From: Histidinibacterium lentulum
Lineage (GTDB): Bacteria > Pseudomonadota > Alphaproteobacteria > Rhodobacterales > Rhodobacteraceae
Direction of reading: 5' to 3'
Assembly (NCBI RefSeq): GCF_003789055.1
Contig: NZ_ML119090.1
Span: 62,001-126,000, forward strand
DNA length: 64,000 bases
Positions 50,142 to 53,727 of the stretch are shown here, one piece after another. The translations under genes were made by a program, and so were the position numbers. Position 1 is the stretch's first letter. Each line of letters begins with the position of its first letter. Below the pieces are notes generated by a model. The model was not told the DNA's origin, did not search any database, and was given only the letters and a program-made list of their open reading frames with translations.

Positions 50142-50186
50142 CCGCGACAGCCTGCCCGCAGGTTGCGGTTGATCGGGCAGCGCGCG

Positions 50187-50201
50187 GAACAATATAAGAA
50201 C
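50187..50201. promoter_or_regulatory. LexA (SOS) box, GAAC-N7-GAAC, overlapping the promoter
   Basis: GAAC (50187-50190), seven bases AATATAA, GAAC (50198-50201). This is the alphaproteobacterial LexA site written in reverse (GTTC-N7-GTTC). It overlaps a -10-like TATAAG that lies 18 nt after TTGATC and ends 3 nt before the ATG at 50205. The position is ideal for repression of the two-gene repair operon that follows. Confidence 0.8.
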
Positions 50202-50204
50202 ATC

Positions 50205-51440
50205 ATGGCCCGACTCGACCTGACCCGAAAACTCGCGATCCTCTCCGACGCCGCGCGGTACGACGCGTCCTGCGCCTCCTCCGGCACGTCCCGGCGCGAC
50301 AGCCGCGACGGCAAGGGACTCGGCTCCACCGAGGGCTCGGGCATCTGCCATGCCTATGCGCCGGACGGGCGCTGCATCAGCCTCCTGAAGATCCTGATGA
50401 CGAACTTCTGCATCTACGACTGCGCCTATTGCGTGAACCGCGTGTCCTCGAACGTGCCCCGAGCGCGCTTCACCGTGGACGAGGTCGTGACGCTGACGCT
50501 CGAATTCTACCGGCGGAACTACATCGAGGGGCTGTTCCTGTCCTCGGGCATCATCCGCTCCCCGGACGCCACCATGGCCGACATGGTGGAGATCGCCCGC
50601 CGCCTGCGGGTGGAGGAGAATTTCCGCGGCTACATCCATCTCAAGACCATCCCCGACGCCGCGCCCGAGCTGATCGAGGAGGCAGGGCTTCACGCGGATC
50701 GTCTCTCCATCAACGTGGAGCTTCCCACCGACGCGAGCGTGCGCGCCTATGCACCGGAAAAGGACCCGGGCACGATCCGCAAGGCGATGGGCGAGGTACG
50801 GGGGCATCGCGAGGCGCGCAAGGAGCCAAGCTTCTCCGGCAAGCGCCCGCCGAAGTTCGCGCCCGCGGGCCAGTCCACGCAGATGATCGTGGGCGCCGAC
50901 GGCGCGACCGATGCCACGATCCTCGGCAACGCGACGCGGCTCTACGGGGACTACCGGCTGAAGCGGGTCTATTACTCCGCCTTCTCGCCGATCCCCGACG
51001 CCTCGGCGAAGCTGCCGCTGGTGCAGCCGCCGCTGGTGCGGGAACACAGGCTCTATCAGGCGGACTGGCTGCTGAGGTTCTACGGGTTCCGGGTGGAGGA
51101 GATCACCGCCGCGCGCACGGACGGCAACCTCGACCTCGACCTCGATCCGAAACTCGCCTGGGCGCTGGAGAACCGGCACCTCTTCCCCGTCGATCCCCAG
51201 CGGGCGGAGCGGGAAATGCTGCTGCGCGTGCCGGGCTTCGGTACGAAGACCGTCAACCGCATCCTGACGACCCGCCGCCATCGGACCCTGCGCTACGACG
51301 ACCTTGCCCGCATGGGCGCCGCCATGAAGAAGGCGGCGCCTTTCGTCACCCTGCGCGACTGGACCCCAGGCGCGCTGACCGACAGCGCCGCCCTGCGCGC
51401 GCGCTTCGCGCCGAAACCGCAGCAACTGCAGCTCCTCTGA
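50205..51440 (+). CDS. Putative DNA modification/repair radical SAM protein
   Basis: A 411-residue protein. The radical SAM cluster is CIYDCAYC (C69, C73, C76), within a TIM-barrel-like region; a C-terminal helix-hairpin-helix (RVPGFGTKTVNRIL, about residue 341) suggests DNA binding. This is the family usually annotated as a putative DNA modification/repair radical SAM protein and found beside UdgX. The ATG at 50205, directly behind the LexA box, gives the family's usual N-terminus. It is followed by udgX with a 1-nt overlap (TGATG). The reaction is unknown. Confidence 0.88.
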   Translation: MARLDLTRKLAILSDAARYDASCASSGTSRRDSRDGKGLGSTEGSGICHAYAPDGRCISLLKILMTNFCIYDCAYCVNRVSSNVPRARFTVDEVVTLTLEFYRRNYIEGLFLSSGIIRSPDATMADMVEIARRLRVEENFRGYIHLKTIPDAAPELIEEAGLHADRLSINVELPTDASVRAYAPEKDPGTIRKAMGEVRGHREARKEPSFSGKRPPKFAPAGQSTQMIVGADGATDATILGNATRLYGDYRLKRVYYSAFSPIPDASAKLPLVQPPLVREHRLYQADWLLRFYGFRVEEITAARTDGNLDLDLDPKLAWALENRHLFPVDPQRAEREMLLRVPGFGTKTVNRILTTRRHRTLRYDDLARMGAAMKKAAPFVTLRDWTPGALTDSAALRARFAPKPQQLQLL

Positions 51441-52858
51441 TGCATCAGGTCACCCTGCCCGTCCTCGGCACCGCCGCCGCCTGGCGCGAGGCCGCCCGCG
51501 CCGCTCTCGGTCACCGCATCCCGCCCGAGCGCATCGACTGGCGGTTCGGCAATGCCGACGCCGGGCTCTTCGAGGGCGCGCCCCTGCCCCCCGGCGACAA
51601 GCCGGTGAAGGTCTCGAAGGCCTTCGTCGAGCTCGCCGATACCGTCGTCTGGCACCGCGATCCGGAACGGTTCGCGCGGCTCTACCGGATGCTCTGGCGG
51701 CTGCGGACCATGCCCGGCCTGCTCTCCGATCCGGCCGATCCGGAGGTGGCCAAACTCCGGACGATGGAAAAGAACGTCCGCCGCTGCATGCACAAGATGA
51801 AGGCCTTCGTCCGCTTCCGCGACCTGCGCCGGGACGGCCCGCGCCGCAGCTTCGCTGCCTGGTTCGAGCCGACACACCACAGCCTCGAGCCCACCGCGCC
51901 CTTCTTTGCCCGCCGCTTCGCCGACATGGACTGGATGATCGCCACGCCCGAGGTCACGGCGGTCTTCGAGGATGGCCGCCTGAGCTTCCGCGAGGGCGCC
52001 CCCCGCCCCGACCTGCCGGAGGACGCGACGGAGGACCTCTGGGGCACCTATTTCCGCAACATCTTCAACCCTACCCGGGTCAAGGTGCAGGCAATGACCT
52101 CCGAGATGCCGCGAAAATACTGGAAAAACATGCCCGAGGCGCGGCACATCCCCGATCTTCTCGCCACCGCCGAGGCCCGCGTGCGCGAGATGGCCGAGGC
52201 GGCTCCGACTCTGCCGCCCCTGCGGTCGGAGCGGATCCGGGAACGGCTCGCGGCCCCCCGCGTTCAGGCGAGGATGACCTTCGAGGAGCTTCACGCCCGC
52301 GCCGCCGAGGAGAACGCCCAGGACCTGCCGGGTTACGGCCGCCTCGTGATGGGCGAGGGCCCGCCGGACGCCCGGCTCATGGTGGTGGGCGAACAGCCCG
52401 GCGACGTCGAGGACCGCATCGGCCGCCCCTTCGTCGGCCCCGCGGGCCAGATGTTCGACGCCTGCGCCGCCGCCGCCGGCATGGATCGTGGCACTGTCTA
52501 CGTCACCAACGCGGTCAAGCGCTTCAAGTACGAGATGCGCGGCAAGCGCCGCCTCCACCAGAGCCCCTCGGCCGGCGATATCGAGCACGCCCGCTGGTGG
52601 CTCACCCGCGAGATCGAGCTGATCCGCCCCCGGCTGATCCTCGCCCTCGGCGGGACCGCAGCCGAGACGCTGACGGGCGCCCGCAAGAACCTGCTGAAGC
52701 GGCGCGGCACAGTGGAGGACACCGCGGCGGGACCGGTCTTCGTCTCCGTCCATCCTGCCTTCATCCTGCGGCTTCCCGATGCCGCCGCGAAGGAGTGCGA
52801 GCGGCTTCGGTTCACCGCCGATCTCGCCGCCGCACGGGAGATGGCAGAGGGCGACTAG
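51440..52858 (+). CDS. udgX: DUF4130-UdgX fusion, uracil-DNA crosslinking protein
   Basis: A 472-residue two-domain protein. Residues ~1-245 are DUF4130. Residues ~280-472 are UdgX, a UDG-superfamily member that excises uracil and stays covalently bound to the abasic site through a histidine. Motif GEQPGDVED is at 318-326, the R-loop KRRLH at 369-373 (H373 is the expected crosslinking residue) and the HPA motif at 438-440. The cysteines that normally hold the 4Fe-4S cluster are not where I expect them: the protein has only C116, C342 and C453, and the aligned position in ARWWL has A instead of C. Its stop codon lies in a CTAG used as an IS target. Confidence 0.88.
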   Translation: MHQVTLPVLGTAAAWREAARAALGHRIPPERIDWRFGNADAGLFEGAPLPPGDKPVKVSKAFVELADTVVWHRDPERFARLYRMLWRLRTMPGLLSDPADPEVAKLRTMEKNVRRCMHKMKAFVRFRDLRRDGPRRSFAAWFEPTHHSLEPTAPFFARRFADMDWMIATPEVTAVFEDGRLSFREGAPRPDLPEDATEDLWGTYFRNIFNPTRVKVQAMTSEMPRKYWKNMPEARHIPDLLATAEARVREMAEAAPTLPPLRSERIRERLAAPRVQARMTFEELHARAAEENAQDLPGYGRLVMGEGPPDARLMVVGEQPGDVEDRIGRPFVGPAGQMFDACAAAAGMDRGTVYVTNAVKRFKYEMRGKRRLHQSPSAGDIEHARWWLTREIELIRPRLILALGGTAAETLTGARKNLLKRRGTVEDTAAGPVFVSVHPAFILRLPDAAAKECERLRFTADLAAAREMAEGD

Positions 52859-53460
52859 GACACCGACACATAAACCCGCACCCAGATGCGTGTCGCTGCC
52901 AGTTTGACGAGGGCGAGGAAGTTGGCGTCGTGTTTCTCGTATCGGGTACCGATGGCTCTGTAGTGTTTGAGCTTCGAGAAGAACCGCTCGATCCGATTTT
53001 GGCGTCTGTAGTCCTCCCGATCCAGCGGCGGCGGGTCAGTCCGGCGGGGGATCGGGCGGATGACGGCCCGGGCGCCGAAGTCGGCGAGGTGTCGCGCAGG
53101 CGGTTGCTGTCGTAGGCTGGCATCCGCCAGCAAGGTCTGGCCCGGTCCGAGGGTGCCGAACATATCGTCGACCGAGCGCCCGTCATGGGCCTGCCCGGCG
53201 GTGAGCTTCAGCGTGATCGGCAGGCCCTTCGCATCGGTGACTGCGTGGATCATCGTCGTCCGGCCGCCCCGCGAGCGCCCCATGCAGACGGCTCGAAGGT
53301 CAGCCAGACCGGCGGTGCCGGCGGGCGCGCCGCCACCCTTTTCGCGTTGGCACCGTGCTGGTGGACACGGATGGACGAGCTGTCTACCGACTGCTCCGAT
53401 CCCTCGTAAGCCGCTGAGACTGCGTCGAATATCCGATCCCAAACCCCTAGGCGAGCCCAC
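52855..53460 (-). CDS. IS5-family transposase, second frame (catalytic part)
   Basis: Real coding starts where the first frame shifts, near 53340. It then reads GRSRGGRTTMIHAVTDAKG, LLAD (second catalytic aspartate), and NRIERFFSKLK (the E of DDE in a Y-R-E-K context). Between about 53092 and 53118 roughly eight codons are out of frame: the expected AYDSNRLRD lies in another frame, as if one base was gained near 53118 and one lost near 53091. It is probably inactive or impaired. The last few codons run across the left CTAG. Confidence 0.7.
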   Translation of the reverse strand: MGSPRGLGSDIRRSLSGLRGIGAVGRQLVHPCPPARCQREKGGGAPAGTAGLADLRAVCMGRSRGGRTTMIHAVTDAKGLPITLKLTAGQAHDGRSVDDMFGTLGPGQTLLADASLRQQPPARHLADFGARAVIRPIPRRTDPPPLDREDYRRQNRIERFFSKLKHYRAIGTRYEKHDANFLALVKLAATRIWVRVYVSVS

Positions 53461-53727
53461 CGCACGAAGCGGATGTAGCAGGTCGTATAGGGGCCGTAGC
53501 GCTCGGGGATATCGGCCCAGGGCGACCCGGTCCTCAGGCGCCAGTAAATGCCGTTCAACACCCGCCGGTCATCGACCCGCGGCACCCCGCGCGGCTTGTT
53601 CGGCAGAAGCGGTTCGATGATCGACCACTCGAAGTCGGTCAGCTCGTAGCGACGATGGGACATGCTGCTCTCCTCTTTGCAGGAAGTGAATCAGCAACCC
53701 GATCCACCAGATGCCGGGACTGAACAC
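52859..53727 (-). mobile_element. IS5-family (IS427-like) insertion sequence
   Basis: An element of about 869 bp, flanked on both sides by CTAG (52855-52858 and 53728-53731), consistent with target duplication at CTAG. The transposase is encoded in two overlapping frames on the minus strand, as in the IS427 group. The right end reads GGTGTTCAGTCCCGGCATC going inward; the left end GACACCGACACATAAACC is only weakly complementary, so the terminal repeats are degenerate or the true ends differ by a few bases. Confidence 0.75.
53250..53663 (-). CDS. IS5-family transposase, first frame
   Basis: The N-terminal part with the family DUF4096-like region (YELTDFEWSIIEPLLP, NGIYWRLRTGSPWADIPERYG) and the first catalytic aspartate in QSVDSSSIRVHQH (D94). 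Coding continues in the second frame through a -1 shift at the slippery sequence GCGAAAAGGG near 53336-53345; the remaining residues of this frame are out-of-frame tail. Starts behind AGGAGAG. Confidence 0.8.
   Translation of the reverse strand: MSHRRYELTDFEWSIIEPLLPNKPRGVPRVDDRRVLNGIYWRLRTGSPWADIPERYGPYTTCYIRFVRWARLGVWDRIFDAVSAAYEGSEQSVDSSSIRVHQHGANAKRVAARPPAPPVWLTFEPSAWGARGAAGRR

Follow-up and report, generated by a model that had tools for sequence, protein, structure and literature searches.

A radical SAM-DUF4130 gene pair with an optional UdgX domain in Histidinibacterium lentulum, very likely under LexA control

The stretch analysed here, the window, comprises 64,000 nucleotides of the Histidinibacterium lentulum contig NZ_ML119090.1 and contains two adjacent genes of interest on the forward strand. 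The first (50205..51440, 411 residues plus stop) encodes a radical SAM protein of family TIGR03916 (rSAM_link_UDG), characterized by a score of 575.9 bits against a cut-off of 343.5. The cysteines of its CX3CX2C radical SAM motif (C69, C73 and C76; 50409..50432, + strand) are invariant in 42 aligned sequences. A helix-hairpin-helix-like region near the C-terminus (51177..51344, + strand) resembles ComEA and RuvA weakly in sequence (E 0.019 to 0.23), and the protein has only weak sequence matches in the PDB, the best at E 0.019. No reaction for this radical SAM family was found in the open-access literature. Pairing with TIGR03915 is part of the TIGR03916 family description, and the window carries the two families in adjacent genes. 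We take TIGR03916 to be equivalent to the COG4277 of PMC8565304.

The stop codon of the radical SAM gene (TGA, 51438-51440) shares one nucleotide with the ATG of the second gene (51440-51442), the junction reading TGATG. This is the 1-nt overlap described in the original prediction, which also correctly identified the second gene (51440..52858, + strand, 472 residues plus stop) as a DUF4130-UdgX fusion, since both profiles exceed their curated cut-offs within one ORF. The DUF4130 (TIGR03915) domain spans 51467..52141 (203.3 bits, cut-off 112.25) and the UdgX (TIGR03914) domain spans 52148..52831 (266.2 bits, cut-off 189.95), both on the + strand. A phmmer search of DUF4130 against the PDB gave no match at E 10. 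Alignment placed UdgX motif A, GEQPG (residue 317), at 52388..52402 and the R-loop KRRLH (residues 369-373), with the cross-linking His position, at 52544..52558, both on the + strand.

Upstream of the radical SAM gene lies an exact LexA box of the GAAC-N7-GAAC type, GAACAATATAAGAAC (50187..50201, + strand), separated from the ATG at 50205 by 3 nt (ATC). A -10-like TATAAG (50193..50198, + strand) sits wholly inside the box, following a -35-like TTGATC (50169..50174, + strand) after an 18-nt spacer; in 96 sites of relatives, the majority bases at the same offset likewise spell TTG. The perfect box 3 nt before the start codon and its overlap with TATAAG were thus read correctly at the outset. 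A generic sigma-70 scan called no promoter in this upstream region, and an in-frame TTG 42 nt upstream is an alternative start for the gene.

Taken alone, the motif is weak evidence and near chance, because the window contains 3 exact matches against 1.16 expected, and 9 of 100 shuffled windows contained three or more. Together with the negative sigma-70 scan, these counts are the points that speak for a rival reading, in which the motif arose by chance or serves a different regulator. Genome-wide, there are 112 exact sites (58 + 54) versus 38 for the backward pattern. Surrounding sequence was examined for 100 of the 112 (97 plus the 3 in the window) and for the lexA site, and, as a point against the site, a matrix built from relatives' sites ranked the window box 9th of 101 genome sites. 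The recA and lexA genes of the same genome, identified by profile, have exact sites 51 bp and 70 bp from their predicted starts, respectively. The genome scan suggested for calibration therefore returned the same operator type at both genes, which argues against chance or a different regulator. Exact sites also lie upstream of uvrA, uvrB and uvrD, named by eye from their proteins. Among 91 distinct classified sites (loci L001-L092, the window's own sites left out), 20 are intergenic by gene prediction and have a predicted start no more than 200 bp away; several of the 20 precede ordinary metabolic genes. Another exact site in this genome precedes the gene of a second radical SAM protein, read by eye.

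To place the box in a wider context, we scored upstream regions of relatives for an exact match within -120..+15 of the start, leaving out L127 to L129, which are fragments or score weakly. TIGR03916 exceeded its cut-off 26 times in 149 genomes of the family, 18 times in 289 of the class and 84 times in 398 of the phylum; the genome_contigs set comprised the best 80 of 593 confirmed TIGR03916 loci. The site was present in 25 of 26 family loci, and the comparison across family relatives proposed earlier found it kept in 24 of 25 when the window was set aside. It was likewise present in 16 of 17 class loci and in 75 of the best 80 genome_contigs loci, while the reversed pattern occurred 0, 0 and 2 times in the three sets. 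Seven loci thus lack the site, and three of them (L226, L228 and L237) are not Alphaproteobacteria. With repeats, the window and non-alphaproteobacterial loci removed and L240-L263 added, 136 of 140 distinct alphaproteobacterial upstreams had the exact site, a count that includes loci from the best 80 of 593. The site was missing in L124, L131, L173 and L193, the last two of which contain one-base variants. The loci share descent and are thus not independent trials, so the yardstick is the frequency in control segments of the same loci, 20 of 6026. Judged by this conservation, the position of the box ahead of the radical SAM gene is not a product of chance.

Outside the Alphaproteobacteria, the operon carries other operators. 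We searched the region -160..+15 in 29 proteobacterial genomes with TIGR03916 over its cut-off. A strict CTGT-N8-ACAG site was found in 19 of the 29, compared to 4 of 725 background segments, and a near-match CTGTA..CCAG in five more (L273, L276, L277, L282 and L284). Three genomes of a single family instead contain the palindrome GTCTCA-N5-TGAGAC, exact in L268 and L291 and one base off in L280; the exact form is also found in the Xanthomonas loci L226 and L237. The remaining two loci, L287 and L292, contained none of the operator patterns tried. Each of the three genomes of that family has three exact copies of the palindrome, two of which precede uvrA (112 bp; gene read by eye) and a DEAD/H helicase gene (51 bp) in all of them. 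The third occurrence precedes the radical SAM operon in G515 and G792, and in G709 has no gene called nearby. A looser form of the pattern has nine matches in G709, of which two fall within genes and some lie near genes with no evident repair role. The GTCTCA palindrome was not found in print in the open-access literature. The upstream regions read from Acinetobacter, Bacteroides and Fusobacterium contained no clear operator.

The replacement of the box by the CTGT-N8-ACAG type in non-alphaproteobacterial genomes, together with its presence in nearly all alphaproteobacterial upstreams, leads us to reject a chance match or another regulator as highly improbable. The same two observations support control of the operon by LexA, which we consider very likely. 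Conserved control by unrelated operators ties the radical SAM-DUF4130 pair to the DNA-damage response.

The close spacing of box and start codon recurs in relatives. A sequence logo from 96 GAAC-oriented sites with at most 6 nt between box and start shows TTG at -18 to -16 (59-70% per base), followed after 17 nt by TATNAT, a majority sequence at +5 to +10 and thus inside the box. The TATAAG of the window, with its 18-nt spacer, sits one base later than in this logo. Most often the ATG is found at +17, 2 nt past the box (57 of 136 sites). The gap from box to start is at most 6 nt in 101 of 136 loci and longer in 35. Of the 101 close-spaced loci, 48 offer a further in-frame start upstream and 53 do not, and a Shine-Dalgarno-like tetramer is present in 8. 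Transcription starting some 7 bases past the -10 element would land on the ATG, which predicts a leaderless mRNA; from the spacing we consider such a start probable. A leaderless layout for this operon was not found in print in the open-access literature. With the -10 element inside the box and the start codon next to it, LexA bound there would presumably block RNA polymerase directly.

We then asked which genes go together. Among the 398 phylum genomes, TIGR03916 was over its cut-off in 84, TIGR03915 in 87 and TIGR03914 in 78. DUF4130 accompanies the radical SAM gene in 84 of 84 genomes and occurs without it in 3, whereas UdgX is over its cut-off in 63 of the 84 and occurs in 15 genomes without the radical SAM gene. 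The other 21 genomes include at least one diverged copy that the family cut-off hides, a UDG domain below cut-off and fused in frame in G786. Since the partner present in all 84 genomes is DUF4130, we regard it as the constant one and UdgX as an add-on. The radical SAM-DUF4130 pair is thus quite probably the functional core, and DUF4130, not UdgX, is the partner to purify with the radical SAM enzyme.

Operons without UdgX retain their operators. Genomes lacking UdgX over the cut-off account for 12 of the 19 strict CTGT-N8-ACAG operons (G786 included) and all 5 near-match operons, and the 3 palindrome operons are all in genomes with UdgX over the cut-off. In 11 alphaproteobacterial loci the second gene is complete but the sequence around the locus gave no UdgX hit; the LexA box is present in 10 of them and missing from L131. 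Two genomes of this group, G181 and G407, encode UdgX at another place. By BLAST, 142 of 175 second genes were called fused, five of them (L130, L167, L175, L193 and L245) without a UDG core in the alignment, and four of these five have the box. A Bacteroides plasmid carries the radical SAM gene and a TIGR03915 gene whose annotation shows no UdgX.

These distributions weaken the original proposal that the radical SAM protein acts on UdgX-DNA adducts. In that scheme, UdgX traps uracil-containing DNA covalently and the radical SAM enzyme releases or processes the adduct, both proteins being SOS-induced. The frequent fusion, the 63 genomes with both genes and the conserved cross-linking residues of UdgX are in its favor. 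However, with UdgX over its cut-off missing from a quarter of the radical SAM genomes and DUF4130 from none, with LexA boxes or other operators kept where UdgX is missing, and with UdgX also encoded apart from the radical SAM gene, action on UdgX adducts is unlikely as the general function of the radical SAM family, and we judge this scheme quite improbable. An adduct-processing role may apply where UdgX is fused.

The UdgX domain of the window departs from the prototype. Its motif B, HPAFILR, is a variant of HPS(S/A)(L/V)(L/V)R, the commonest form of which is HPSYLLR (63 of 127 aligned rows). Four presumed Fe-S ligand positions, which we assigned by alignment and by analogy with family 4 UDGs, lie within 52310..52591 (+ strand). 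Of 142 aligned rows, 122 have C, C, H and C at these positions; the window protein has E291, Q294, R361 and A384 instead, and we call it a UdgX-type variant without Fe-S ligands. The window protein belongs to a clade of nine sequences (SH-aLRT 100) in which all four aligned ligand positions are lost, while the active-site H, E, Q and N are kept, cross-linking residues included. The fold and active-site residues of the window UdgX are predicted to be intact, in a structure-model comparison spanning residues 277-472 of the fusion protein. It differs from Mycobacterium smegmatis UdgX (PDB 6ajo and 6iod) in its fusion to DUF4130, its motif B and its lack of the presumed C, C, H, C ligands. PMC10359453 describes a 4Fe-4S cluster as a property of the prototype UdgX, one that does not belong to its R-loop signature, and calls the physiological role of UdgX largely unknown. 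A UdgX without Fe-S ligands was not found in print in the open-access literature. This lineage offers a natural test of the role of the cluster, and such a protein might serve as a cross-linking tool that needs no cluster.

The predicted integrity of the UdgX fold and active site would also fit a role in uracil base-excision, coping with misincorporation by SOS error-prone polymerases, with the radical SAM protein and DUF4130 as helpers of UdgX. PMC8565304 reads the COG4277-COG1573 system as uracil base-excision repair of such misincorporated bases. Against this, UdgX is a dispensable module and not the core, and according to PMC10359453 it captures DNA by a covalent bond instead of turning over. 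We consider this explanation unlikely.

The reading we prefer, to which we give an even chance, is that the locus is a self-contained SOS cassette whose radical SAM-DUF4130 component is a DNA-lesion repair enzyme, with UdgX as an optional covalent anchor. LexA would occupy the box, which holds the -10 element and stops just before the start codon. On DNA damage, RecA would trigger LexA cleavage, allowing synthesis of a leaderless mRNA, and stop-start coupling at TGATG would ensure translation of the second gene. The radical SAM protein, with its helix-hairpin-helix-like tail, and DUF4130 would jointly repair a damaged DNA base or sugar directly by radical chemistry, much as spore photoproduct lyase does, and UdgX would tether the complex covalently at uracil or abasic sites as these appear. 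From family membership and gene context we tentatively assign the pair a reaction in which a DNA lesion is repaired directly; the anchoring role of UdgX is put forward with similar reserve. It is more speculative still that a two-component, SOS-induced radical DNA-lesion repair enzyme exists across the Proteobacteria, with a host-specific operator and with UdgX as a detachable anchor that works without an iron-sulfur cluster in one Rhodobacterales clade.

The pair might instead modify DNA bases or aid mutagenesis. DUF4130 is a predicted mutagenesis-related enzyme in PMC3765255, which ties it to SplB-like radical SAM proteins and to UDGs that might modify thymines, and the family name itself refers to DNA modification/repair. 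However, five annotated plasmid neighborhoods from Alpha- and Betaproteobacteria contain no modification context or methylase partner, and we regard base modification or mutagenesis as rather unlikely. The flanking genes differ among these five plasmids and only the radical SAM and UdgX genes are common to them, so neighboring genes were rejected as further operon members.

Part of this picture is in print. PMC8565304 predicts that two Bacteroidetes SOS motifs govern COG1573-COG4277, and cites SOS control of the same genes in Verrucomicrobia (Erill 2016) and, among Alphaproteobacteria, in Caulobacter (da Rocha 2008). The LexA-control half of our reading is therefore not new. The Bacteroidetes operon has the same gene pair and SOS-type control, and the direct repeat GTTC-N7-GTTC, the type of the window box, is the alphaproteobacterial motif. 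The account in PMC8565304 differs in that, within the available text, DUF4130 is not separated and neither a leaderless-type promoter nor a UdgX free of Fe-S ligands appears. The same source describes SOS control of SplB-type radical SAM repair proteins in several species. SplB and other SOS-linked proteins of this kind are likewise radical SAM proteins of DNA repair; compared by sequence family, however, SplB is COG1533 and the window protein COG4277. As far as the open-access literature shows, the operator replacement in other classes, the promoter layout, the constant DUF4130 partner and the Fe-S-free clade are new here. A gene with this radical SAM annotation is reported to be up in desiccated Acinetobacter (PMC13130816).

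Two other origins were considered and rejected. Neither protein matched PADLOC at E 0.1, which speaks against a defence system, and PHROG matches were weak only, which speaks against a phage origin. Viral collections held one relative in IMG/VR and ten phage-collection records. In one of these records (L306) the operon is surrounded by host housekeeping genes, and another, the gut contig L307, has no annotated genes. By eye, L307 contains a sequence like the CGAAC-N4-GTTCG box, a motif given in PMC9578287, with one mismatch.

The palindrome GTCTCA-N5-TGAGAC occurs in three exact copies in each of three Xanthomonad-type genomes. It lies upstream of a uvrA-like gene and of a DEAD/H-helicase gene in all three, and upstream of the radical SAM operon as an exact match in two and with a one-base difference in the third. 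Palindromes of this type precede the radical SAM gene at loci L226 and L237 (Xanthomonas) and L268, L280 and L291 (one family outside the Alphaproteobacteria); further loci with the palindrome are L293, L297 and L298-L301. GTCTCA-N5-TGAGAC is perhaps a separate type of DNA-damage operator.

The radical SAM gene was also found in 158 plasmid-collection records, ranging from about 60 kb to megaplasmids; a few among the 40 listed resemble chromosomes filed as plasmids. In five plasmid neighborhoods from Alpha- and Betaproteobacteria, the UdgX partner was its only constant neighbor, with variable flanks. In the window, transposase ORFs on the minus strand (52855-53663; IS5-like by eye) adjoin the DUF4130-UdgX gene at its 3' end, with a 4-nt overlap across its stop codon.

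Elsewhere in the H. lentulum genome, the gene for a second radical SAM protein, PA0069-like by eye and possibly a further SOS radical enzyme, is preceded by a LexA-like site (L017:1501) 13 bp away. Another LexA-like site, GAACAATTAAAGAAC (L075:701; G000:C7:11854), ranked third of the 101 scored genome sites. It is located close upstream of an ORF resembling a C5-cytosine DNA methylase, which adjoins a phage-terminase-like ORF (both by eye).
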